From: Eublepharis macularius
Lineage: Eukaryota > Chordata > Lepidosauria > Squamata > Eublepharidae
Reading direction: 5' to 3'
DNA: 64,000 nt
NCBI RefSeq assembly: GCF_028583425.1
Contig: NC_072795.1
Coordinates: 12,113,001 to 12,177,000 of the forward strand
The translations under genes and the position numbers were made by a program. Below are positions 3,390 through 58,674 of the stretch, piece by piece (position 1 is the first letter of the stretch; the number at the start of each line of letters is the position of its first letter). The notes below the pieces were generated by a model, which did no database searches, was not told the DNA's origin, and worked only from the letters and a program-made list of their open reading frames with translations.

Positions 3390-3741
3390 TAGCGGTAGGC
3401 ATGAACCGAAATACAAACCAAAGCTTGTCACAAACAGGGCTGTTTTTTGCTTCACGAACTGGTGGTTTGTCAGAGGGCACTTCTGATGAACCACCATGAT
3501 TTTTAGGCTAGTTCGTTTGGTTCGTTTTTTGGTTCGTCACTGCAGACAGCCTGGCGCCGATCAATCAGTTTCCTAGGCAATGGGGGTGATGGGCTTACTG
3601 CAGACCTCCTGCTGCCCCAGAAGTGACATTTTCACGAACCAAATGAACCGGTTCGCTAACCAGGCTATTTCATGCCAGTTCGTGGTTCATGAAATGCAAT
3701 GAACCACGAACCGCCATTTTCCCAGTTTGTGCCTGCCTCTA
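3390..3741. mobile_element. hAT-type MITE with 8-bp TSD
   Basis: A 352-bp element. Its terminal inverted repeats are TAGCGGTAGGCATGAAC on the left and the complement of TAGAGGCAGGCACAAAC on the right. It is flanked by the perfect 8-bp duplication GTTAACAC (3382-3389 and 3742-3749). The interior is rich in GGTTCGTGAA-type motifs. The 8-bp TSD and TAG termini indicate a non-autonomous hAT. A relative lies at 52.04 kb. Confidence 0.88.
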
Positions 3742-4643: not shown

Positions 4644-14481
<9,838 letters not shown>

Positions 14482-17488: not shown

Positions 17489-17645
17489 CTGAGATCTGAT
17501 GAGATCTGGCTCACCTGGGCTATCCTATCCTGTGCTTTACCTTGCACTAAATTGGAGAATACCACAGGACAATTGGCATATACCTGGCTAGATTCAGAGC
17601 AAGGGTGGAAATCCTCTAAACTGGCGTTATGAGCCTGGGCCTAGT

Positions 17646-17870
17646 AGGGTTGCCAGCCTCCAGGTGGTGGTTGGAGATCTCTTGGAATTTCAACTGATCT
17701 CCAGGTGACAAAGATCAGTTCCCCTGGAGAAAATGGCTGCTTTGGAAGGTGGATTGTATGGCATTATACCATTCTGAGGGCCCTCCCCTCCACAAACTCC
17801 GCCCTCTCCAGGCTCCACCCCCCCCAAATCTTCAGGAATTTCCCAACCTGGACCTGGCAACCCTAGGGCC
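17646..17870 (+). repeat. 230-bp squamate repeat, nearly complete copy
   Basis: It runs from GGGTTGCCAGCCTCCAGGTG through AGTTCCCCTGGAGAAAATGG to CCTGGACCTGGCAACCCTAG. Confidence 0.65.
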
Positions 17871-18460: not shown

Positions 18461-18588
18461 CAAACCACAGTCTACGGGCTTAGGTTTTGAGAGGTCTCTA
18501 AATACAAACAATTGCTAAATTACCCTGGGGAGGATGTTGGTAACACTATAGGGCCTCTTAAAATAATTTGGCATAGTCTCACCATGTC

Positions 18589-29100: not shown

Positions 29101-32100
29101 TAATTCCTTTGAATCACATATGAGCTTTCAAATGGCACAAGGACTTACCAGACCCAGGAGGGTAGACTTGGTTCTTCTTTATCTCAGGTACAATATGGGA
29201 TGTGGGTACAGTTTTTGTTTGCATTTTCACCTTGGCTGAAGGATCCCAACAAATGTGAAGGTTTTTTGGGGACGGGATCTTTATTCCCACTAAATGAAAA
29301 CAAAGTGCTTTTGAATTAATTAACTTCATTTATACCCTGCCTTTCTACCCTGATGGGAACCCAAAGTGGCTCACATCATTCTCTCCTTCAGTTTATCCTT
29401 ACGACAACCCTGTGAGGTAGGTCATGTTGAATGTATATGACTGGCCCAAAGTCACTCAGTGAGCTTTTGTGGCAGAGCGAGGATTCGAACCCTGGTCTCC
29501 CAGATCTTTGCTGCTTTAACACTGTGCAACCCTGGCTATCAAACCTTGGCTTATCACCAAGCGAGCCAAGCATGTGTGCTCAGCCTGAGCTAATAGCATT
29601 GCAACTTGGTTTTATGTTTTATTTATTTATGTTATTTATATTCCGCCTTTCTCACTGAGACTCAAGGCGGATTACATAGTGTGAGATTAGGACAATTAGT
29701 GGCAAGGACAAGGGCAGGCATTTCCATACAGTGTCAAGAACATTTCCATAAACAATGTCATGGGGTAAAAGAATATAAGTTTACCAAGATACAGTATTAG
29801 CAAGGATCCAGTATGGGGTTGAGGAATTGCCGAAACAGAACATAATCAATTCTAGGACTTACATTGAACAACATAAAACACAGGGATAGCAGAGTTGAAC
29901 CCGCTCTGTCATTAAATGGAACAGGGGCCTTCTCAATTGAAATGGACAGAATACTGCACCAGGAGGTGGGTGAATGTTTTTGCTTTTAGCTTTCTTCTGG
30001 GAATCATATCTGGGCAACGTGCGGTGGAAGGGGAGGAGCTTCCAAGGTAAGGGGGGGTCTTAATCTTTTTGACCCAAGCTGACCTGTATACTCTCTGAGC
30101 TGCCTGTGACCCTCTCTTTTCTTGGGACGACCCTTTCCCCCCCACTAGCGGTGATCCTGCCTACCATCTGGGCTTACCTGCGGACCCTTGATGCCGAGCC
30201 GTACTACCTGGGGCTGGCCATCTCTGCCTTCAGCTTTGCCGGACTGATCACGGGGCCATTCTTTGGGTACTGGTCGGACCGCACCCGTCAGACAAAGGCT
30301 ATCATCCTCTTCGCCAACTTGTTTCAGATAGCAGGTAAATGGCCAACATCTGGAGGGGACAGTTGTTGAACACAGGGTCAAGCTACAAAGGCAGCCACAC
30401 CCTTCTCTGTCTCTACTCCAGAGACATAACAGTTTGCATTTCTTCCTGCCTCCTTTATTAGGTGGCCATTTCCACACACGTTGAATAATGCACTTTCAAT
30501 GCACTTTACTTGACTACAGTGGTCCAAGCAATGGTCACCTCTAGGTTGGATTACTGTAACACGCTCTACACTGGGCTTCCCATGGGCCTGATCCGGCGGT
30601 TACAGCTGGTACAGAATGCAGCAGCGCGGGTCATTGCTGGAGCACCGGTGTGGGAGCATATTACACCGGTGCTACGCCAGCTGCATTGGCTGCCAGTGGA
30701 GTACCGAATCAGGTTCAAGGTTTTGTTGTTAACCTACAAAGCCCTATGCGGACTGGGACCGACGTATCTGAGGGTCCGTCTCTCACCATATGAGCCCCGG
30801 AGGACTCTCCGCTCTGGCGGAAAACATCTTTTAAGTGTCCCTGGCCCTACGGAGGCCTGCCTGGCATCGACCAGGGCCAGGGCCTTTTCGGTCCTGGCCC
30901 CGGCCTGGTGGAATGCTCTGTCTTGCGAGACAAGGGCCCGGCAAGATTTACTTGCATTTCGCCGGGCCTGTAAGACAGAGTTATTCCGCCAGGCATATGG
31001 CTGACGCTGGGCGATGCCCCCCCCATGGAGGGGGGGTTAAACCATCGCCCCTATGCGAACACAGATGCATGTATGAACCGCTGTGCAGTATGAACCGTAA
31101 CATTTAATGCTTTTAAATGTTTTTAAATGTATTATTTAATGCTTTTAAATGTTTTAATGGTGGGTGATGTTTGTATTTTGTTATCTGCCCTGAGCCTGCG
31201 AAAGCGGGGAGGGCGGAATATAAATATAATAAATTAAATTAAATTAAATTAAAATTAAATTTAGCAGTCCTTTGGAAGTGGATTTTTTGTTCCACACATG
31301 GAAAAGCAGTTCCAAATGTTCACTAAAGAGTATTGAAAGTGGATTATCCGACATGTGTGGAAGCAGCCGGTGTCTTTAATACACTTTTCCTCCTTTCTTT
31401 TTATCAAGCGCGGAGCCCCTTGTCCCTTCCAACTCCAGCCCCTCACCTGTGTGGCTGTTCCTCCATGCAGTTCCCACGACCCTTCCTGGAATTGAAAGGG
31501 GGTTTAGGAATGGAGAGAAATGGAGGAAGGCTCTCCACAAGTGTAGCTGGAGACAAGCCAAGAAATGTATTCTGTAGTTTAGTGCGTATTATTTGTTGGC
31601 AATAAATGTATTAACAATAACCCTGAATGCTGGTTTAGTAGGTAGGCAAACCAAATTCCTGCTTCACTATGGAAGCCATCGTCCTAAAGGTCAAAGAGAA
31701 AGGGTGTAATCTTGTTGGTCCACTAACATTAGGGGATATTTATCAGTACTTGGGGGGGGGGGGGTTGCCTTGTAATGTCTGGGTCAGTTCTTCCACCCCC
31801 TACACTTAGTGGAGCTTCTCGACCTTTACCAATTATGTAGCCGAAGGGGACTTGAGAAGATGTAGGGCTAGGGTAAAACGGCCCTTAATGAAATGAGGAC
31901 AGCACCAGTCTCTTTTCCACAGTGCTAGAGACAAAAACAACTTGTGTTCCTGCTTCCTATCGGGTCAGCCTATCAGGGATCCAAGCACAGAGAAGAAAGA
32001 CAGGGTTTACTCTCACCTTCCCCCAAGATATCCCGCTAGTGTTTCATTTGCCTCTGATAGCTTGCCTTATCTCTCTGCCTTCCATTTCAGGGAATTTCAT

Positions 32101-35100
32101 GTACTTTGTTGGTGGGTCCAAATGGATGCTTCTCAGCAGCCGGCTGGTAGCAGGTAAGAGCCAGATGTGTCTTCCAAGGTATATTTTACATGGGTGTAAC
32201 TAGGGTGGGGCCGGAAGAAGGTGGCCTTTGGGGGTCAGTGTATCATCTCTTCCCGTCTTCTCTGTGCTTGGATGGACAGGTGTGGGGACTGGAGCTGGGG
32301 CTTCCATCTTCAGCTACCTGACGCAGTCCACCACTTCGCAAGAACGCGCCACTGTGTTTGCGGTAGTCATGGCTTGTCGGCAGTTTGGGCTCCTTGTCGG
32401 TAAGCTGATCTTCCTCCCCTTACTGTGAGATCCTGATAACCTTCTGTTCATCCCACTGTGCGTGAAAAGTCTTTTTCCGTTGATGTTTCTGTAGCCTGGG
32501 ATCATTACCACAAGTTTCTTGAACTCTTGGAGAAAGAATAAGGAGGAAAATGAGGACTGGCTGTGGTTGGTCCACTGTGCAGCGTGGACTGATATGCCTG
32601 CAACTTTTTGTTTTTGAAATGCATTTGTTTCCTGAGCAAGCAGGCGTGCTAATTGGTTGTCATAACATTTGATATTTACTAGGAGTATGATCGACAGTCT
32701 TCATTCATACGCTGCAGAATCGTATTTTAGTTTTTCTAAAAAAAATTATCTAGTGCATTAATCTGCTTCTCCTTCAGCGAGTTTAGGGTAGCACACATAT
32801 TCTATCCTCACAACAACCTTGGAAGGTAGGCGCGCGTGACCGGCCAAAATTGCCCAGCAAACTTCTTAGCAGACTAGGGATTTGAACTTGGCTCTTGCAG
32901 ACCCTAGTCTGCCATTCCAATCAGTTTGCTTAGAGACAGGTCCCTTCTTGGTCCTCTCCATACACATGTGGGCAGCGTAGTGTAATGGTTAGAGGGTCAG
33001 GCTAAGATCTGAGACACCCAGGGTTTGAATCCCCACTCTGCCGTGGATGTTTTCTAGGTAACATTGGGCCAGTCAGTCTCTCGGCCTAACCTACTTCACA
33101 GGGTTGTGTGGATAAAATGGAGGTGAGGACAACAATTTCAGCTGCTTTAGGATCCCATTGGCAAGAAAAGGGGGGGATAAGTAAAGTACATAAAGACACA
33201 TAGGGCTGAAATTTAATCCTGACAATATATATATATTGAATTACCTCAGAAATTTTCAGCTCCTGATTTCACCTGACTTTCCCCCTCTGGTAAATAAACA
33301 AGTTAGTTACTTTTGGAATTTTAAAAGCACCTCTGGTGCCATTTCTGTTGTTGAAGGACGAGGGAACGTCATAGCATCTGACCTGCCATGTTTGTTCCAG
33401 GGCCAGCCTGCAACGTTTTCCTGCGCCTCTGTGACTTCTGGATAGGGCCCTTTGTGGTCAACAAGTTCACATCGCCTGGGGTGAGTAACGGCGCTTGAGG
33501 ATCATCTAATGCAAACTGGTACATTTGTGGGGCAAATTTGTCGATTCTTTCTCCCCACCCCAATGCACAGGAAGCAGCCTGAAGCAGGGGTCATTTCGTA
33601 GAAAAAGAGCTGGAGGAACTCATTAGCATAACTCATTAGCATATGCCACGCCTCTTGCCATCACCAGAAGTGTGTCATTAGTATAACTGATTTGCATATG
33701 CCACACCCCCTGACATCACCTATTCTGGCTGTTTTGGACCCAATCCTGGCCATTCAGGGCCAAAATTGAGCCCAAAATGGTCAGGATCGGGCCGCTGATA
33801 AGCGGCAAAGTGATCCACCTCCTGTCAGAGGCCCGATCCAGGCCGTTTTGGCCCCAATCCAGGCCAAAATAGGCCCAAAATGGCTGAGTAAGGTGGGCGG
33901 GGTCACCTGACATGTGACCTCTTTGGGGAACTGCCGGAACTGCGTTCCTGTGCGTCCCCCCTTGAAATGAGCCCTGCTGAATAGTAAATGGACCATACCA
34001 CCTGGGGGGGACTGCATTTGTGGGAAAGCACCGCTTCTGAAATCTTCCCGGGGTTCAACCTTGCAAGCAAAACTCTAGCAGAGCTGACCTAGAACTGTCT
34101 TTTTCTTGCTGTCCCCGTTTTGGTTTTTTTTGGCACTTGCTTCTTCATGGAGGGAGCATTTAAAAGTGGTATTCTCCCTGCCGTAGTCTCCGGTGGCACA
34201 GTCCATTCTGTCCCTTTGTTCCTTCCTTGTTCACGCATGCAGGAGAATAAGGAGGCAGAATGGACCAGAGAGCTTCAGGCTGCAGGTGGTGAAATACGAA
34301 GCATCACATTTTGCAGTGTGCTTTTTATGTTACAAACTTTCCACAAAGAAAACCAGCACGGCAACCAGAGGAAATAGTACCTTTCTCCTTGTTGTGCTGT
34401 TTCTCTGTGCATAGAAACTTCTTTTTAAATGCAAAGGAAAATTTAATTTACTTCATTGGCTTTCATCTCAGTGGCGGGGGTGGGGGGTCCAAAATGGCTT
34501 ATATTATTCTCTCCTCCCATTTTATAGTTGCAACAACTCTGAGGTCAGGTAGGTGCAGAGTGTGTGACTGGCCCAGGGTCACCCAGCAAGCTTCCATGGC
34601 GGAGCGGGGAATTGAACCTGGTTCTCCCAGATCCTAGCCTGACACTCTAACCACTACACCACGCTGGCTCTGAAAGTAGGAATGTGGTGCAGTCCGTTGT
34701 ACCACCTGTGAAAACCAGGTGATAATTCTGTTGCCTCTGTAGATGCAGTTTGAGTTAACTGGAGAACTACAAAGAGACTGAGACTGAGATTTAGATTGTA
34801 GGTGAACATATTGTTGGCCATAGGATTGCCTGGCAACTGGTGGGAATCTGTGGGTCAGGGACACAGGAAGATGCATGTGGCATTGCATGCCCCATGGCAT
34901 CACTTCTGTATTGGGAATCGCCAGAAATTCGGTGGCAAACCCCTAGTGTTTCCTAGAGCTATGTGATGTCACTTCCGGGTTCCACCTGGAAGTGACATCA
35001 CACCATGTACATTGCAGGGTTTTCTTTTCTCCCACTGCGGCTCACAAGGGTTGCTGGCAGGAAGCCAGTGGGAGGCCAGGTAACCCTAGTTGGGCAATGC

Positions 35101-38100
35101 CATTTCACACTGTGCGGCATCTGCTTTCACAGATCTCTTTTTCTCCACAAAGCTTATTTGAGTGAGCACCTGATTTTGGTGGTGGCTGATTTTAAAACCC
35201 TAGAGGTAGTAGGTGGTCCAATGAGCAGAGCTGCCGCATGGGTTGATACTGGGAGCCGTCCTGCGGATATGTGGGCCCCACCCTTGAAGGCCATTAAAGG
35301 TAACAACCAGTTGCTTGAATTGAACTCTGAAACAAACCAACAGCCAGTACAGAGATCACAAAATATATGTGCTAGGCAGCTGGTCCAAGCTGGTAATCAG
35401 TCTGCTGCATTTTGACTTTCTTGAACTTTCCGAGTTGTCTTCAAGGGCAGCCCCATATAAAACATGTTACAGTAGTCTAGCCCCAGGATTATTGTTGCAG
35501 CATGGATAGATTTGCAGGATTTGAGGAGGAGGCCAGTATCCAAACAAGATGGGACTGACAGAAGGCACTTTCCCCTACCCTCTGTTTTTCCAGTAAGAGT
35601 TGGATCTAAACCTCACAGCCCCCCAAAGTACCTCTGATGGGAACAAACCCTCCTCTTCAAAGGAGGGCAGAGCAATTCCCTCCCAGCCCTCAGTTTTGCC
35701 AACCAGCATCATTTTCGTTTCACACTTTGATGTCCTTATTGTTAGTTGTTACGTTGTGAGCTGCCCGGTTGGTATTTATTTCCTCACTTGACCAATTCTA
35801 GAAGCAGCATATTCAAAAACACTCTCAAAATGGCCACCAAGGGTGAAAAATTAGCACTACTGAACATGTTGTGCTACCAAATCAGAAGAGGTTGATTCAA
35901 ACTCTGTGCTTGTGTGGGAAATACTTTTTAAAAGATTTTAATGTAAAAGATACAACAATAGAAAGTGCATAAAAAACTTATACAGACACTACATTTAAAA
36001 TTAGATTAAACTAATAGAAAGCTGCATTCAGAATATGTAACAGCACAATTAAATTGTATAATAGCTCTCGTTCCCTCTCCTTAGTTGGTTATACCCAAAC
36101 GTTTAGTATCAACCATTTTTAACTAATCATTTCTCCTGTGTTTTATCTTTGTATCGTTACCTTAATTTATCTTAGTTTTAACCTAAAGAATCAAAGAAGT
36201 CTTTCCATTTTTTCCAGAATTCAACTGCTGGTCTATTATGCACATAAGAAGTTAATTTGGCCATAGGTCCATAGTCATAGATCTTGTCTATCCACTCTAA
36301 AGTGTCGGGGCACAGATCTGTTTTCCATTTTGCTGCATATACCACTCTTGCTGCTGTCACCATGTACCAGAAAACGTCTCGGAAATACTTTTTTTTTTTT
36401 TTAGTGAAACGATGGGGGAATTAAGAGCCCCTGACCATCCAAGGGCCCTTTCCCTTCCTTCTTCATGCTGCGTTTTCTGAACTGCTGGATTATGTGAATG
36501 TGCTCAGACGTCTTCCTTTCTCCTCTCTTCTCTCGTGTCTGCCTGCAGCTCTTCATGTGTCTGGTGTGGATTCTGCTTCAGGTCATTGTTTTTGTCATGT
36601 ACTATGACCTCCCGCTTTTGCCGCCCCCTTGCTCGGACAGAGTCATGTCCATGCCATCAGATGTCTTGGATGAGGAAGAGGAGGAGCCCCTTGTGCACCA
36701 TGAGGTGGGCCAAGAGGAGGAGGCAGAGCCCAGCAGCTATGGGAGCACCTGTGTGGAACCTCGGGGTCCCCTGTTGGGGGACGAGTGCCGTTATGTGCCC
36801 AATGGCCACTTGACGGACGAGGAGGCTGCCAAAGGGAGAGAGAAGAGCCCCTTCAGTAACTTCAGCTCCTTGAGAGGTGAGACTAGAGATGTGCACTTTG
36901 GGTTTCCGATTGGGGTTTTTAACTTGAATTGGGCCTGATTTGGAAAGATTTGGGATTCCCGAATCATCCGCAGCATTGCTGAGCTTATTTGGAAATCCCG
37001 AAGCAAAGCTTTCCAAAGCAACTTGTATTGCTTCGGGAAGCTTTGGGCAAAGCAGCCGGCCCACAGCACTTTTCTAGCTGTTTGTATTTGCAACCAGCAA
37101 GAGAAGCCCTCCTCCTTCTCCCATCAACTGAAAAAAGCAGCGGGGTGGGAAGTTTGAAAGCAACACTTTTCTGGCCATTTGCAAATGGCCAGAAAAGTGC
37201 TGCTTTGAGCTTCGGTGTGCTCCGTAAAGATTCCTAAATCTTTACAGAGCATACCGAAGCATTTAAACACCCAAATAGTTTTTGGGTTTACCCGAAGCAG
37301 GAAACCCGAATCCTTTTGGGGTGCACGCCCCTAGGTGAGACCCTTTCCATGGTTGAGTTGCAGCGCATGGCCATCAGAAGCTTTGCAAATAGAGATCTTT
37401 CATGTCACTTATCATCTGATCTTTTTAGCTGGAGATGCTGAGGTTTGAACCTGGGCCTGCAAAGAAGGGCAGAGCATCTTCTTTGCAGGCAGCAGGTGAT
37501 GTAAAAGATCTCTACGTGAGATGGTGGAGAACTGCTGATGGTCCGATTAGACAATATTGACCTTGATGGCCTGATGCAGTACAAGGCAGCCACAGGAGTT
37601 TAGCAGACGTTGCCTTTGGGCAGCAAGCTCAGGGCTTAGGAGGAGATGCCTGCCCCAGCCACGCTATCCCTGCATCAGAGATCTATTTTCATTAGAGGTG
37701 CCAACGCTGGCTTCGGAAATTCTTGGAAATTTAGGCGTGGTGCTTGGCGACGGAACTCAGCAGGGATGTGATAACAGAGTCCACCCTCCGAGCTTGCCCT
37801 TCCCCCTAGGCGAACAACTGATCTCTCTAGCCTGATGACCAGTTGTCATTCTGGGAGAACTGCAGGTCCCAACTGGAGGATGGCCGCCGTAATTTTATAG
37901 CGTGTAAGGCCTGCTTGACACGTGTAACAAGGTGGTAGAATGTATAGTGGAGGATCATGTTTTGGAATTCGCTCCTGCGTTTAACAAAAAACCCCAAATC
38001 CCTGCAAATGGAAAACTAGCACCATAGAGAGGTTCCGCGTGTCTCTTTTCCCTCTGTGCAGTGCTAGTTTTCTATTTGCAGGGAAGCTTTTTTAAAGATG

Positions 38101-41100
38101 CTTTCGAAACCGGAATGTGCAGTATGATGGGGTACAGCCCTTTCTATCACCCCAGGGCTCCATATTCTTATTGGGGGGTTCCGCATGATCGATTTTGATC
38201 AGACTTTCTGAGCAGTTGTGCTGAAGTGGAATCATACGAATCCACCACTCCCTGATTCCACATTAAGGCTTTTGTTTTGCATTGACATTTCATTTCATCA
38301 TGCTCAAAGTCCATCGTGCGGAATTTGCCCAGTATAAAAATCGATTCCTCATTGCTTTTTCTGGGGGAAGTGTCGACAAACATGTGTCTTCTTCATTTTT
38401 TAATCCCCCCCCCCCCCACAAAATGTTGCTACATATAAACGTTGCTTCAAACAAACACATCTGATAGGTCAGAACATTTCCCACCTATATCGTGGAATGG
38501 GTATTGGTTATTGACATTTGGAGGGAAAATTGTTACCGATGACCCCGCTTTCCCTCTGCCTCAGAAGCTGCCAGCTGTCAGCGAGCAACAAGTAACAAAT
38601 TTGGCGCATTGAAAAACGGACCCGTTATTGGTCAGCTGTCGTCATGTGACACAGGATATGTTTCTGCATAGACTTGTAGAAACGTTGCAACATTTTTTTA
38701 TAATTAAAAAAAAACGGGAAGGGAAAGGTAGTGGGTGTGGCTTAGAAAACGTGATTGGCCAATCAAATGAAGTTGATTTGAAGGGCGAGAGAGAAGGGCA
38801 AGGGTGGGGAGAACATCGGATAAAGAATTTTGCATGATTAAAATCCCTAATCTGCTGCGAATGGACAAATAAGTTGGGGAAAAGCAGGATGGAAAAAAAA
38901 AACGGACAAATCCTGCAGTGACTTCGAAGCTGCTGCTAGGATTGCCTTCCCACGTGTGGAAACACAAAGAAAAATCGAGGCCATTTGGAAGCTGAACAGC
39001 GGAAAACCACTAGTGCGGAATCACCCGTTTTCCTGCATGAGCAAACTAGGTTGGGTTAATGTGTTGGGTGGCACATGCAAGAGATGTGGAGAGGCCAAAA
39101 CAAAGCTCGGCGAAGATAGGGGCAGTGTTATGGTGAATGTTCCAGGAATCTAGCCTTGCCTGCTTCAGTCTCGCAGGACTGATGAGCCCTGTTCTGTCGT
39201 TCCAGAGTATTTGAGGGAGGAGGTGGTGGTTCTACTCACGGCCCAGTTCATCACTCTCTTCAATCAAACGGCCCTGGAGGTAGGTGTCTGCGGGCAGGGT
39301 GCTCTCTTATCCCTTTGCAACGTGTTCTTAATCTGGTTAATTGGGCGGTTTGTGTCCTTGCACCTTTTTTTATCTTCCTTGAGCTGGTGAAGATAACGTG
39401 GGATATCAATATTTTAAATTTAAATTTTTGCCATGCAGAGTTGCCAGTTTGCTAGTGTGGCTTTGGGTGGGGGCTGGGCAAGCAGCAGGGGGGAGATGCA
39501 GCGATGCTCCTGGTGCCCTGTCTACTGATCTCTTCGCCTGGCCCCCGCCCGAAGCTAGAGCTAGCAGTGGCTAGGCACCCTATCTGCTGTGCGGGGAAGG
39601 GGGGGCAGGAGAGGGGCTCCGAAACCCCCCACACCCAGTGGAGGGGAAAGGGGATGCCCCGCAAGAGCCTGACGCCTGCACTCCCCTCCCTGCTGCTCTG
39701 TAAATGTTAAACTTAAATCTGCAAGGACGCCTACACTTCCTACACTCCCCATCAAACCTTGAGGTAAGCAGACACGTGTAGAACTCTAGTAACACGTCTC
39801 GTGTAGTTCTGCTCTTAGTCTAAACTACAAGTTATTTTTAACTCCGAGATGTCCGGGAGGAAAATGGTCTCCTTGGACCATTTCAGGTTGGGTTAACAGC
39901 ACAGGGGGGGCAGGTCTAAACCCCTTCTCCCACCCACTGTGGTCCTGTCCTGAACTGGGCCCACGCTGCCCTGGGAAACAGGCGGCTCCGGCCTACATCT
40001 CTCAAGCAATGGATGTTCCTGGGGAACAACAAGATTTGACTACTTAGGGCTAAGAGTGAGTACCCCCAGGGTGGCCCAGTGAGTTTCATAGCAAAGTGAA
40101 ACTTTTGAGTCTTCCACATCCCAATGGTTCTTTAGAGAAAAAGGTGGATTGCGCACTCCACCTCTTTCATGACTTTTGCAACTGATTTGCATTTACACGG
40201 CCCTCACTTCCTGCACCCTCCCCCCCCTCCCTTTACCGCCTATATATACCTCTGGCTGGTTTCTTCATACCCTGCATGCATCTGACGAAGAGAGCTGTGG
40301 CTCTCGAAAGCTTACGCTACAATAAAGTTGGTTAGTCTAAAAGGTGCTATGGTACTCTTTACTATTTTGCAACTACGGACTAACACGGCTGACTCCTCTG
40401 GATCTCTGGTCCATCAAGATCAGTATTCTCAGACTGGTAGTGGCTCTCCAGGGTCTCAAGTAGAGATCTCTCGCATTGCCTACTGCCAGATTCTTTAAAC
40501 TGGGTATCGAACCTGGGACCTTCTGCCTGCCAAGCAGATGCTCTGCCTCTGAGCCACACCCCCTCCCCTCCTGTGGGCTGGATCTCATGCTCTTGAGTGG
40601 CTAGTTGTCAAGCAGCGCCTGCATTTCGTACCCTACAGCTTCCCCACATATGACCGTGCTCTTGTGTGTGGCTTCTCTCTTTAGACCATGGTGACGCCCA
40701 TCACCCAGCGGTACTTGAACTTTGGGGAGTTGGAGAACAGCATCATGTACTTCCTGTGTGGTGTGGAGGTAAGGATAGGTTGTGTATGCGACCCGGAGTT
40801 ATCACTGTAGAGTAGGGCAACAAGTGTGTGCACTGGATTCCAGGCCATGTTCGGTGTGTGGATTTGACCTTCTAGGGCCTCCAGGTGTCTCTCCTCCAGA
40901 ATGTCTTAGGGAATGCTGTCTCCCGTATATTACCACAACGCCACTCTTGAACCCTTTGCGCATTGAACAAACATGCTGGGAGGAAGAGTGGGCAGGAGTA
41001 CACTGGCCCTTCCCTCCACCTCTGCATAAGTGCCAGGTTGTCTGCTTAGTGTGGATGTGTAGAGGCACTGCTGGCACCAGGGTTTCTGGCGCCCGCGGCG

Positions 41101-44100: not shown

Positions 44101-47100
44101 GGGCGTTTGTCGCTGAACTGCTGTATCTGAAGGTGACTTTCCTGTTTGAACCGCCTGTGAGAAATGGAACGTTCACGTTGACTTGATCGCAGTTTGTTTT
44201 AAAAAATCCAAAGCAAAAACCTCAAACTCAAAGCCTTGTAATCTATCTTGAGACTCGGCACAGCACAACGGAAATATGCAGGGTTTCAAGGTCCCCTGGA
44301 AACTCTTTGTCAGGCTCAGGGCTCATTTCGAGGGGGAGCGCACAGGAACGTAGTTCCGGCAGTTCCCCAAAGTGGTCACATGTCAGGTGGCCCCGCCCAC
44401 CTGACTCTCAGCCATTTTGGGCCCGTTTTGGCCTGGATTGGGGCTGAAACTGCCTGGATCGGGGCTCTGACGGGTGGTGGATCACTCTCCCACTCATCAG
44501 CGGCCCGATCCTGACCATTTTGGGCCCCTTTTCAGCCATATTCAGCCCCTTTTTGCCATTTTGGGCCCAATTTCGGCCCTGAATGTCGAGGATTGGGTCC
44601 AAAACAGCAAGGATAGGTGATGTCAGGGGGGTGTGGCATATGCAAATCAGTTATGCCAATGACACACTTCTGGAGATGGCAAGAAGTGTGGCATATGCTA
44701 ATAAGTTATGCTAATGAGTTATGCTAATGAGTTCCTCCAGCTCTTTTTCTATGAAATGACCCCTGGTCAGGCTAGATGTTTAAAAGAAATAAATAAGTGC
44801 GAAAGGAGTTGGAGATGTCTCAGGCCTAATCTTTAGGCCAGGCAGGTTTGAATAAAAAAGGTACGGAAGGTTAGAGCTGGTATCAGGTTGCCTCTTTGGG
44901 AGGGACGTAAACGACAGCGTTTAACAGAAGTCCCAAGAAGCCGGAATCAATGAAACGTCTCTCTAACAGCAAATGCAATGCGCCGGTTCCTTAAAAGATG
45001 AGGTAGATGTGCCAGAGGGAGCATGAGAGAGTACAAAAGTTCAGTCTGAGATGGCCCATCCATGCCGGAGGTCTTTCTATTGCTGCTTCAAGCATTGAGT
45101 TTTCACCTGCCTGGCAGCCCTGAACAAGGTGGTCTTTTCCACCTTCCGGTCCTTCCTGCCTTCCGGTCCTTCCTCGTTCTCCTTTTCATCCACAGGCAGC
45201 TTTGCCGTCCTCCTCATGGAACTGGTGGTGGGCGTGTTCCTGCAGGTGTTGGGCCTGCCCTTCGTCGCTGTCTCCCAGGTGTCGCTCTTCTCAAAGGTCA
45301 CGGCAGAGAGGACGCAAGGTAAGCCCACTCACGGTGCCGCCACTGAGCTTCAGTTGTTAGCTCTATTTCTTTGTCCCCTTCTTGAAGTGTGCACCAGCTT
45401 TGGGCAGCTCCTGCCGTCCTGGTCTCGAGGCTTCTCTTGGTAAACATCCCAGCACCGTTCTCGAGTTTCTGAGGTGGATACCTTCTTCATGCCAGTTTCT
45501 AGATGGTGACTTGGTCTACACACGCAGCTGCAAAAAGATGACTCTTGAAAGGGTAGAATGGGCTAAACCATTTCAACTTGTGGGCGTGGAATGCTGCTTT
45601 TTGAAAGGGGGGCTTTTACAACCAGTATCCCTACCCTGCAGCCTGAATCTGGTACAGTCTGTTCTTTCACCTCTGTCTTCCACCAGCCTTGTTCTTCTTT
45701 CATACATCAGCTCTTGAGCTTAGCAAGAAAGTTCCTGGTAGGCTGCCGGAAGTAAGCTGAACTGAGCCCTGGCAATGCTAGGAGTGCTGCCAGCATCATA
45801 GCGACTTGGCCAGCAGCAACGGCAAGGAGTTGTGGCTACCCTGACAGCCAAGTAGCCTCTGTCCTTGGCACCGCTGGGGGCGTGGTTCAGCGTGCTCCAT
45901 TTTATCATCCGAGCCCGGCCCTGGTTTTGCTGTATGTGAATATTTGGGCAGACGAATGCACATATTTGCTACGAGTACTCATTCTGAGGAAGTGCGCCTC
46001 TGTTTTCTCTAGTTGCATCATGCTGCTACCGTAATGGGGGTTTCCGAGTATTATTGATCGCTCTTGGAGGGGGGATACCATATCCTCCCCCCTGCAGGGA
46101 TAGCTGCCTCCCTTCCTCTTAATTCTGGGCGCTGATCACAGCCGTTCCAGCAATCGGGCAGGTGGGACGCACACCCTTTTTGTTTGTGAGATTGAAAACG
46201 CTCTCTTTCCCCAAGGCCTTGGCTTTCTAAGCTCTGTGTTTGTTCTGGGGTATACCCGTGCCCAAGTTATGAATTCCAGACTCCGCTTAAATAAAAGTTA
46301 AGTTTATTTAGCTTAAGGAGTGTTTGCCAAAAGCATGAAGCATTCTTAGGCAACAGACATTAAGAAAAATTTACTGTTGCTCAGGGCTTTTTTTCTAGGA
46401 AAAGAGGTGGTGGAACTCAGGACTGCACAACGACGTCACTTTGGGTTAGCTGCAACAAGGGGGAGTTTTTAAAAGTTTAAGTCGCCCTCGGAGAAAATGG
46501 TCACATGGCCGGTGGCCCTGCCCCTGGCGCCGAGGGCAATCTAAACTCCCCTCTGTCTGGAGATCAGGGGCTGGGGCCACCAGCCATGTGACCATTTTCA
46601 AGAGGTGCCGGAACTCTGTTCCACTGTGTTCCAGCTGAAAAAAAGCCCTGCTGTTGCTACAGAAATCTATTTAAACATGAGAGCAAGCTACCTAAGGATC
46701 TCTGCCTGGCATCCATTTTGTTGCTTATCTCACCCATCCATTAGAATGTGAGCTCTCTCCCATGCTAAGCTGGTTCGGCACAGGGACACCCTGAGGGGAT
46801 GAATAGCATGTGGCTTTCAGCTTCTCTCCGGGTTACTTGCATGATGGAGAATGGAGTAGCGAAAGAATAGAGTGGGGCTGGGTGAACTGAGAAGCCATCT
46901 TTTCAGGACTCAGTGCCCCACCCGGCAACTCAAGAGCCAATCAGGGCCAAACTGTTAATTAGCGTTTCAGCTGTGTGAAACTCTAGGGAGTGAACATGGA
47001 GCCTTTCTGAGAACAGCCTCCCAAGGCCGAATCTCTGGGAAACTCAGGGACTGCTCCACAGTTCAGCCCAGCCACCATATATCTGAGCTAGGCTACAGGC

Positions 47101-50100: not shown

Positions 50101-51995
50101 AAGACAGAAGGGCAGCAGTGGAAAGTGCCATCATGTCATAGCTGACATATGGCGACCCCTGCAGGGATTTTCAAGGCAAGAGACTTAACAGAGGTGGCTT
50201 GCCATTACTTGCCTCTGCATAGCAGCCCTGGCCTTCCTTGGAGGTCTCCCATCCAATTACTAACCAAGGCCGACCCTCCTTAGTTTCTGAGATCTGATGA
50301 GACCAGGCTCACATGGGGCTATCCAGGTCAGGGCAAACAGATGGGTGACCAGTGCAGATCTCTCAGCACTAGGGTGATACGATCCCTGTAAGCAATCCCT
50401 GACAATAGCTCAGCTGCTGCATTTTGAACCAGTTTCTTTTAAGGAACTGCAGAGAAGGAAGGGACTGAGGCTGGCATTCTCACGGAAGTAGTAAAAGCGT
50501 GTTACCTCTGACGCTGCTTATCTGACAGACTGCGCCTCTATCCAAAATTTCCCCATGTGGCAAGAGCTAGTATGTTTGTGAGGGGAGGTTCTAGTTTAAC
50601 TTTCTTCTGAACATACTGTCCATATGTGGGGAGTTTCCGCGTGCCTTCAGTACATGAGCGTCTGATAAGTGGTCTGGTCCAAGAGTGACAGAGACCAGAG
50701 CTGCGGCCTTTCAAAGGCATGGATTCTTTTAGCCAAGCTGTGTATTTCTTCTTCTTCATCCCCCTCCGCACATCCCATTCTGGCTGCTATGAGAGGAAGG
50801 CTTTCTTATCTTGGGGAGGAGATCTGCATTGTGTGCAGCCACAGGGAATGAAGATATTCTAGATTATTACCTGTACTGAATTTTTAAAAAAAATCTTTGA
50901 AGAAATGCAGGATTTGGTGATTTGTGTCAATTACGTAAATAGTCCGTTCTCGTAAATCTAGTGATTTTTCTGTGGTTGTGCTCTCTCTGATTGGAAGAAG
51001 TAGCAGCGTGTTTTGCAGATGTTGACACTTTCAGCTCTTGACCAATAAACATCTTCACAGCACCTCCTGCCTACCCTGAGATACCAGGAGAGATGGCTCA
51101 TGCACTTTTTCAAAGCCATCCTCTGCAATCTTAAGGACTACAAACTTGCTTTTCTTAAAAGACAAATGATGGTTACGATGCTGTATTCCCCCAGTACCAA
51201 AACTCCTGTCTTTATATAGCATGATCTTGAGATATTATTTTCAAAGCCATCCTCTGCAATCTTAAGGACTACAAACTTGCTTTTCTTAAAAGACAAATGA
51301 TGGTTACGATGCTGTATTCCCCCAGTACCAAAACTCCTGTCTTTATATAGCATGATCTTGAGATTTTATTGCCTTTTCTGTCTCCTAATATCCAATTATA
51401 AAAACATCCCTTCAAACCACTGTGGTTTCTGTGACTACTGTCCCCATTTTACAGATGAGAGGGAGAAAAACTGAGGCGGAAAGAAAAGAGGGGCTTTTAC
51501 TGATGCCTTCCATATGTTCATGTCTGACCAGGGGTTTGAATCTGGCTCTCCACTTCAGCATGCTATCAGCAGATTGTATTAGCTCCTGGCTTTCCTTTAT
51601 CTTGTATTTCATACCAAATGATTTTAAAAATCAGATCTTATTTACAATCACTTTTATCCTGCCCTCTGCTGAGCCTGTGGGTCCCGCTTTATCACAACAA
51701 TCCTGTGAGGTAGGAGATGTGAGAATAAATGATTGCCCCAAGGTTACCCAGAATGCTTCATGGCTGAATAGGGCAGTCTGTCTGCTCTAATAAAGCACGT
51801 TCTCAACTTGCATCTTCAGCTATCTAGTAGCCTTGACTGAGGCTAGAGTAGAGACAGGAGTCTGACGTCTAGAATCTGTTTCTGAGCTAAGTGTTGTATT
51901 TGCATCTGGAATAAAGTACAGAGGGTACAGAAACTGCACTATTAGCAAAAATTGAATAATCTATATGAAGAGCTTATAGTGAGAAAACAAAGAAT

Positions 51996-52045
<50 letters not shown>

Positions 52046-55000
52046 GGCACAAACCGGAAAAAACCAAACTGTGCGGTTTGTGGTTCATCACATTTCACGA
52101 ACCACAAATTTTCACGAACCTGCCCCAGTTTGCGAACCAGTTCGTTTGGTTCGTGAAAACGCCACATCCAGGTCAGCAAATCATCACTTCTGGGCCAGCA
52201 GAAGGTCACTTCCGGGTAAGCAGAAGGTCTGCAGGAAGTCCATCCCCTGTTGCCTAGGAAACTGATTGATTGGCGCCAGGCAGTCTGCAGTGACAAACCA
52301 AAAAATGAACCAAACGAACCAGCCTAAAGTTCATGGCGGTTCATCAGAAATGGGCTCTGATGAACCGCCAGTTCATGAACCACAACCAGAACTGGTTTGT
52401 CACGAACTTTGGTTTGTATTTCAGTTCGTGTCCATCTCTAGTGTGTGTGTGTGTGTGTGTTCCAAACCATCAAGATACAAAGGTATTTGGCTGGTCTTGC
52501 GACCGTAATAAACCTTTGATTGATTGATTGATTGATTGATTGATACAAAGGTACTCCTCCTACTCCTACTTATCAAATGTGGGGAAAACCACATATATAT
52601 CTTCCCAAGGGGAGAGCGCCAAGGCAGTAACAATTCTAGTGCACAACTCTTCTTACAGCAATAAGAAATCCAGTTCACAACTCCTTTTACAGATGAATTG
52701 CCAGCTCCATTTCCGTTTCAAATCAATCTTCATCAGAGTTCTTTTCTTACAATTCCAAATGCCTCAATAAATTATCAAATTTTAAATACGCAATAGGATT
52801 TGCATCTGGAACATCACAGGGATGCCGTGTCCTCACTTGGCTTCTTAGATCAGGATGTGCGGGCGAGTTTGTACAGGAAGCAGACTCCGCAAGACCACCT
52901 CTGTCAGGTCTGCTGCATTTCAGGGATGTGGAGGGCTGCTGGTGGTTAAAATGCTATCCTGGACAAAAATTCCCTGCACAAATGCTGCTCCGCGGGGGTT
53001 GAGAGGCCAACACAGTGGAGAAACCTGACCTACACACGGGAGATCAAGCATCCCTCTAACGCTTTTGCGTCTCTGCCCTCGTAGGGTTGAGTCAGGGGCT
53101 CCGCCGGTCTGTAGGAGGAGTTGCAACCATCCTGGGGCCGCTGTGGGCTGGCGGCTTGACAGAGAACCTTTATATCATGCTTGGAGCCATGATGGGGCTG
53201 CTGAGCCTGTTGATGGTGAGTTCTTGGAGGAGGCTGGGGATTTTCCGTTTCTCTTCCCCCTCCACCCGTAGATTGTGAGTTGGTAGAGCCAGAAAATCTT
53301 TTGCAGAAGGAGAAAAAGGCTTGGAAGGATAGCAGGACACGCATGGCTTACATCTCCTGCTCACGTCCAGTGTGGCTTCATCTTTTCACACTCAGGTTGC
53401 ATCTGCACTGTTATCAGAAAGGAGAATCATCTTGGGGCATAGATATGTAGGTGTCCCCATTCTTGGATCAAGGGATCTCTTAAGTTACAGTCTCTGCTGC
53501 TGAGGTTTAATAGTCCTCCAAAAGGAGATGAAGAGCAAAATCGAATGAATAAATAATAAATAAATAGAAGAGACGCTTAACCAATTCAATCTTTATTGAT
53601 CTAGAATAGAAGTGGAGAAAGACAGGAAATGTTAGGGGTAAAGGCAAGTTCAAAACGATTCGAAATGCAGAGGCGGTTCTTGCACGGGCAATGCTCAGCC
53701 ATGAAACAGCAAGCAGTTTACTCAAGGGGGTTCTGAAATACAGTGCTAGTGATCCACTGCTACCTAGCATCCTGTTACTTGAGAGTTTACCAAAGATGTC
53801 TCTTTCTGTGTGGTTAGTCTAGGAAAATCATCTAGGGGAAGTGGCATGCACTTGGAAGACTGGATAGTGACAAGACGGGAAAGGGATCCCTCATCGGGAC
53901 TGTGGGTAAAGGGGTTTGACAGAGGGGGAAGGCGTCTCAGAGTTAAGCTACAAGAGACGAATTACACGAGGAGGAGCATGTGAAGGGAGTTGCAATGTTA
54001 GCCAGGAGTTTTAAAAGAGATCGGAAGGCTTTTTCAATGTCCCCTTGCTACAGAGCCAGGGAGATCCCTACTCAGAGGGTTTGTTAATTTCCTCTTCGCC
54101 TCCCGAAAGCTCTGTCAGTTTCACCTCCCCTTCTAAGAGGAGAAGAGGAAATTAAACCCTCTGGGCAGCCATCTCCCTGGCTCTGTAGAGAGGGGAAACT
54201 GACAAAGCCTTCCGATCTCTTTTAAAACTCAGCTTCCCGGCTAACATTGCGACTCCCTTCACGTGCTCCTGCTCGTGTAATTCGTCTCTTGCAGCTTGGC
54301 TCTCAGAGCCAAAACACACGTTAAGAAATACCTAGGTTCAGCACGTGTTCTCTTACCTCAAGGTTTGCCGGGATCTGTAGGCGTCCTGGAAGCTTAAAGT
54401 TTAGCATTTACAGAGCAGCAGGGAGGGAAATACAGGCGCCTGTATTTCTCTTCCCCTTCCTGCTGCTCTGTAAATGCTAGACTTTAAGCTTCCAGGATGC
54501 CTACAGATCCAAGCAAACTTTGAGGTAAGAGAACAAGTTTAGCATTTACAGAGCAGCAGAAAGGGGAAGGGAAATACAGGCGCCTGTATTTCCCTCCCTG
54601 CTGCTCTGTAAATGCTAAACTTTAAGCTTCCAGGACGCCTACAGATCCCGGCAAACCTTGAGGTAAGAGAACACGTGCTGAACCTAGGTATTTCTTAACG
54701 TGTGTTTTGGCTCTCAGTTGTCATTAGAAAGACCTGTCAAAAAGAGGGGGTTAGAACAGGCAAAGCCCAAGGAATAGCCAAAGAGTTACAATACAAACCC
54801 CTGGGTCAAAATCAACAAATCAGAGTTATATTCAATAGTACATTCATTCATGAAAATTGTTTACAAGCATATACATTATCTTACATATCATAAATTTGAA
54901 TACATCTGTACCACCATTCAACTAAGTTTCAGACCGTGTGAATTCTTAGTCCATGTGTCAATTTTCCATGTAGATAATTTTGATCTCGCAGTGCATCAAA

Positions 55001-58254: not shown

Positions 58255-58674
58255 CAGGGGTCATTTCACAGAAAAAGAGCTGCAGGAACTCATTAGCATA
58301 TGCCACACCCCTTGACATCACCAGAAGTGTCATTAGTATGACTGATTTGCATATGCCACACCCCCTGACATCACCTATCCTGGCTGTTTTGGACCCAATC
58401 CTGGCCATTCAGGGCCTAAATTGGGCCCAAAATGGCAAAAAAGGGCTGAAAATGGCTGAAAAGGGGCCCAAAATGGTCAGGATCAGGCCGCTGCTGAGCA
58501 GGAGAGTGATCCACCTCCCGTCAGAGGCCCGATCCTGGCCATTTGGGGACCAATCCTGGCCAAAACGGGCCCAAAATGGCCAAAACTCAGGTGGGCGGGG
58601 CCACTTGACATGTGACCTCTTTGGAGAACTACAGGAACTGCGTTCCTGCGCATTCCCCTTCAAAATGAGCCCTG
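58255..58674. mobile_element. hAT-type MITE with 8-bp TSD
   Basis: 420 bp, CAGGGGTCATTTCACAGAAA to TTCAAAATGAGCCCTG. Flanks GCGTTTAC (58247-58254) and GCATTTAC (58675-58682) differ at one base. Confidence 0.85.

Follow-up and report, generated by a model that had tools for sequence, protein, structure and literature searches.

A hAT-type MITE and its duplicated splice donor at an exon/intron boundary of an MFS-type gene in the genome of Eublepharis macularius

Four kinds of described system bear on the locus reported here. The hAT transposons generate 8-bp target duplications and carry ends of 10-25 bp (PMC3942097), and introners are introns derived from DNA transposons in which the target duplication provides a splice site (PMC9860276). 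Recursive-splicing ratchet points are defined by a juxtaposed acceptor and donor (PMC8605326), whereas in [D1,2] stwintrons the outer donor is interrupted by an inner intron, which separates its bases 1 and 2 and for which the authors report no sign of a target duplication (PMC12403724). The present locus lies in a stretch of 64,000 nucleotides of Eublepharis macularius DNA (contig NC_072795.1, positions 12113001-12177000; the window, to which all other positions refer) and consists of a hAT-type MITE whose target-site duplication spans the border between exon 6 and intron 6 of an MFS-type gene, with one copy of the splice donor on either side of the element (Table 1).

Table 1. Positions of the MITE, its duplications, the donor sites and the host gene in the window
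Feature	Position	Strand	Remarks
MFS gene, ten exons found, 439 codons	30149..53215	+	AG and GT borders; the gene's first and last exons not found
Exon 6 of the MFS-type gene, 328 bp, out-phase 1	36549..36876	+	AG acceptor 36547-36548, open frame, in-frame join to 39206
Left target-site duplication GGTGAGAC	36876..36883	+	Contains exon 6 donor GAG/GTGAGAC
GT...AG unit between the two donors, 458 bases	36877..37334	+	
hAT-type MITE, 450 bp, non-coding, imperfect 13-bp terminal inverted repeats	36884..37333	+	
TGA in the exon 6 frame, reached if the second donor is used	36936..36938	+	
Right target-site duplication GGTGAGAC	37334..37341	+	Contains second donor TAG/GTGAGAC
GT of the putative downstream donor CAG/GTGATG	37496..37497	+	U1 duplex -9.5 kcal/mol; site type that a ratchet-point exon would need
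Exon 7 of the MFS-type gene	39206..39279	+	In-frame join from exon 6

The host gene is of the MFS type, since one open frame runs through all ten exons and its product matches Pfam MFS_1 over residues 2-414 (E-value 9.3e-28), as well as MFS_1_like. Among solved structures, the relatives found for this product were chains of NorA only (best E-value 2.3e-10), NorA being a bacterial MFS transporter. The gene may be MFSD8-like, as it was named in an earlier sequence-only reading of this DNA, from which the number of exon 6 is also taken. When the animal's own genome was searched with the exon 6 DNA no second match was found, only exon 6 itself, and there is therefore no near copy of this exon that could act as a backup; a second gene copy or retrocopy that would reveal the junction in use was rejected on the same result. 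An intron of the gene also contains an open frame of 171 aa (30489-31004), which we presume to resemble the end of a LINE reverse-transcriptase frame.

The sequence GGTGAGAC is present as two exact 8-bp copies, 458 bp apart from start to start, and these are its only occurrences on the + strand of the window, with one further copy on the minus strand at 18576. The left copy is made up of the last base of the exon and the first seven bases of the intron. The stretch common to both places is 9 bp long (AGGTGAGAC), because the A preceding the right copy is the element's own last base, and the duplication itself is 8 bp. The sequence-only reading had given these two places as an 8-bp target-site duplication, had equated it with the last base of exon 6 plus seven intron bases, and had named the element a hAT-type MITE; the first two points are borne out by the exact copies at both places and by the end of exon 6 at 36876, and the identity is supported by the inverted ends, the 8-bp duplications and the many relatives in the genome.

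The two ends of the MITE, TAGAGATGTGCAC at the left and TAGGGGCGTGCAC at the right (as the reverse complement), are identical at 10/13 bases and contain the short inverted ends TAGAG and TAGGG, which are of the YARNG type, YARNG being the consensus of hAT terminal inverted repeats. Two internal hairpins are present (37157-37206 and 37209-37260), and the predicted RNA fold of the element with its flanks (36860-37360) is far better than those of 100 shuffles (z -12.9), as would be expected because this is a MITE with internal inverted repeats. Two stop-to-stop frames inside the element (84 and 82 aa) have no Pfam match at E-values up to 0.1, and an 18-base piece of it found no match among viral contigs. 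The element is thus short and non-coding, with inverted ends and many copies, as is usual for MITEs. The window was also scanned for exact 8-bp flanks next to 13-bp inverted ends matching at 10/13 positions or better and lying 80-1500 bp apart. Twelve such pairs were found, five with YARNG at both ends, whereas 40 first-order simulated windows contained a mean of 0.3 pairs and at most 1, in no case with YARNG at both ends. These simulations exclude a chance repeat as the source of the paired GGTGAGAC, and the focal element is confirmed as an ordinary hAT-type MITE.

A search of the animal's own genome (2.24 Gb) with the element returned 121 match rows, several for each place; of 3708 first-look candidates, 40 were scored. 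At 13 of the 30 family loci examined, the focal one counted, the two ends were recognised together with an 8-bp duplication (0-1 mismatches), the best-matching pair of ends being chosen at each locus; by the same rule the other 17 have no recognised end pair or no matching duplication. Ac-type hAT elements have a target preference of the form nTnnnnAn, and this preference is present at the level of the family, where the 13 duplications, read on both strands and with the focal one included, have T at position 2 in 18/26 and A at position 7 in 18/26. The focal GGTGAGAC shows half of this bias, with A at position 7 but G, not T, at position 2. An alignment was made of the eleven loci of 380-700 bp among these 13, L007 and L024 being excluded because of their length. 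Over 447 positions the focal copy has 86.8% identity with the majority sequence of its ten relatives, and its divergence of 13% indicates that the insertion is old; the relatives themselves, each of which helped to form that majority, are 81-87% (six) and 59-70% (four) identical to it.

Several other elements are found in the window. A second family of hAT-like MITEs, whose ends are CAGGG, is represented at 44317-44765, 58255-58674 (-) and 33585-33976 (-); the copy at 44317-44765 has an exact 8-bp duplication (GTCAGGCT), the further copies are 84% and 80% identical, and those at 44317-44765 and 33585-33976 (-) sit in introns of the same MFS gene. A third family has TAG ends and includes an element at 3390-3741, with the exact duplication GTTAACAC, and a copy at 52046-52430 (-) that is in two pieces (84%, 75%). 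The element at 46382-46650 (269 bp) has inverted ends identical at 13/13 positions (CAGGGCTTTTTTT) and an exact duplication, CTGTTGCT, and that at 17645-17865 (221 bp) has ends TAGGGTTGCCAG and flanks GGGCCTAG, with partial copies at 15.2-15.5, 23.3-23.9, 26.7-27.2, 28.7 and 42.0 kb. Two tandem copies of a 131-bp unit occupy 51107-51370 and match at 99%, pointing to a recent duplication, and a 138-bp unit with strong inverted repeats is present as two tandem copies at 54397-54673. A tRNA-Thr (tgt) was called by ARAGORN at 8723-8794, and could be either a gene or a tRNA-derived SINE.

The two donors of the focal site, GAG/GTGAGACT (first) and TAG/GTGAGACC (second), differ at positions -3 and +8, their nine core bases being identical save at -3. 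Predicted U1 pairing is -9.7 kcal/mol for the first and -9.5 kcal/mol for the second; values for the ten donors of the gene lie between -6.5 and -12.3 kcal/mol, and among 3430 GTs in the window 1.4% attain -9.5 kcal/mol. With donors so nearly equal, strength cannot choose between them. Of three donor-like exon ends compared (36704, 36876 and 37334), 36876 alone gives an in-frame join with exon 7, since 328 mod 3 is 1 and both 786 and 156 mod 3 are 0; an exon end at 37334 is of phase 0 and in any case encounters the TGA at 36936. The start of exon 7 at 39206, the second copy of the donor 458 bp downstream and the in-frame stop that follows use of this second donor had all been put forward in the sequence-only reading, and each proved correct. 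Its proposal that the insertion was tolerated because the duplication rebuilt the donor stands in part: the exon-side copy is complete, but 'rebuilt' is an overstatement, because the exon-side copy is kept automatically whenever the 8-bp target of an insertion includes the donor.

We consider it highly probable that the exon-side donor is still used and that the MITE is removed within the 2.3-kb intron, a reading supported by the fact that only 36876, of the three ends compared, joins exon 7 in frame. A non-autonomous hAT transposon inserted at the border between exon 6 and intron 6, where the target was cut with an 8-bp stagger, and gap filling, by the known hAT mechanism, left one full donor joined to the exon and another joined to the old intron. 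With the exon-side donor most likely in use, the MITE and the second donor would leave with intron 6 (36877-39205), and the second donor would be a relic. Exon definition should favour the first donor (a 328-nt exon as against one of 786 nt), and in any second-donor transcripts the stop at 36936 would precede the next junction by about 400 nt and probably expose them to nonsense-mediated decay. The points against this account as a whole are the equality of the donors, the G at position 2 of the focal duplication and the 17/30 family loci that lack an end pair or matching duplication; in addition, classical experiments with duplicated donors are reported to have often favoured the intron-proximal one.

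The equality of the donors raises the possibility that the second is used in part, which would produce an exon of 786 nt with a premature stop and lower the output of the gene. The predicted U1 pairing (-9.5 vs -9.7) and the persistence of an 8/8 identical copy agree with this, but the exon would be much longer, and the identity of the copies is no sign of constraint: by arithmetic, an unconstrained 8-mer remains unchanged at 13% divergence with a probability of about 0.32, which therefore provides no argument for selection on the second donor, and we regard its partial use as unlikely. The second donor could also serve in exonization of the MITE, where it and the AG at 37076-37077 would bound a cassette exon of 257 nt. 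The acceptor-like tctag at 37077 scores 4.8 on an acceptor matrix, although among the 4616 window AGs that were scored 11% do equally well; moreover, read in the frame of the gene the cassette contains stops, and its length is no multiple of 3, so that exonization of this kind seems extremely improbable.

A different use of the site is suggested by the unit that lies between the donors, which starts with GT and ends with AG, this AG being formed by the MITE's last A and the first G of the right duplication, a feature absent from the sequence-only reading. Excision of this unit yields the donor sequence of the empty site letter for letter. The intron might thus be removed in two steps, with the unit (GT...TAG) leaving first and recreating exon 6/GTGAGACC before the remainder of intron 6 is spliced, the MITE then behaving as a removable mini-intron. 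An acceptor and a donor are juxtaposed as TAG/GTGAGAC at 37334/37335, the donor-like CAG/GTGATG is found 161 bases past the junction, and a branch-point-like TTTAC lies 44 bases upstream of the AG. However, the acceptor appears weak, with a score of 3.4 on that matrix (the gene's ten acceptors score 1.9 to 11.5, one of them being weaker), and is equalled or bettered by 16% of the same 4616 AGs; it has no long pyrimidine tract, and further AGs lie between the branch-like site and the AG. Intron 6 is also merely 2.3 kb long, and the layout would arise automatically wherever a target duplication opening with the exon's last G stands beside an element ending in A. The apparent weakness of the acceptor makes two-step removal very unlikely, and the broader proposition, that the MITE and its duplication form a removable mini-intron and that a ratchet point for recursive splicing thereby arose in a single step from a hAT insertion in an animal, would on these letters be a shade more doubtful still.

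The chance that a random insertion in the window has an 8-bp target that takes in positions -1 to +6 of any of the ten donors identified is ~3 in 10,000, and rough arithmetic predicts about 30 donor-holding insertions in a genome of this size before selection; this estimate uses the density in the window, 5 strict pairs in 64 kb that are not all proven to be hAT, and some 200,000 introns as an order of magnitude. The pattern GGTRAGNN is found directly before an end of this kind at 16 places. An exact second duplication lies within 1.5 kb at two of these (the focal one and L033), by a rule that would pass over longer elements, and at four (L034, L035, L038, which is the focal place, and L046) the upstream frame is open for at least 60 aa; only the focal place has both the duplication and an open frame of this length leading into the donor. 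The right-end pattern occurs at six places and its reversed control at three, and the focal place alone has an exact left copy within 1.5 kb, with L051 having one with a single mismatch. Stops are found shortly upstream in all three frames at both L033 and L051, and before L051 no open stretch exceeds 19 aa; among the six right-end places this check covered the focal one and L051. The permuted control AGRTGG occurs at four places as against 16 for GGTRAG, a raw fourfold excess in the direction of an insertion habit, measured against one control. If positions are treated as independent, the position counts of the family lead one to expect a ratio of about 5, and the excess therefore shows neither an enrichment of donor-like targets nor its absence. 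A recurrent introner-like habit of the family was rejected, only the focal place of the 16 showing both features of a donor insertion. The focal case is clean and uncommon, yet of a kind expected by chance. Among the matches listed, no hAT MITE that duplicates a splice donor was found in the titles and abstract starts of the open literature; this does not imply absence from print, subscription journals being mostly outside that body of text.

We note that when a DNA transposon whose ends are TA...TA arrives and its 8-bp duplication starts at the exon's last G, an intact donor and an AG/GT junction result together from this single event, and that the locus is in effect a natural experiment in which two near-identical donors, 458 bases apart, compete within one gene. 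Compared with other hAT MITEs, nothing in the element itself is different, as it has an 8-bp duplication, YARNG-type ends, no coding capacity that we could see and many diverged copies, and only its landing place is unusual. The likenesses to the other systems are in layout. As with introners, the duplication supplies the letters of a splice site and the element's end is part of the other, giving a GT...AG unit; however, introners create new introns inside exons in many genes, whereas the focal MITE inserted at an existing intron border without creating a new intron, and no habit of this kind was seen across the family, 1/16 GGTRAG-flanked ends resembling a donor insertion. Ratchet points share with the focal site the juxtaposed AG/GT and a putative downstream donor, but here the acceptor appears weak and the intron is short. 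Stwintrons likewise have an intron-like unit located at the donor of an outer intron, although the focal unit lies between two whole donors produced by target duplication. In its layout, the focal site combines features of introners, donor-sited inner introns and ratchet points.
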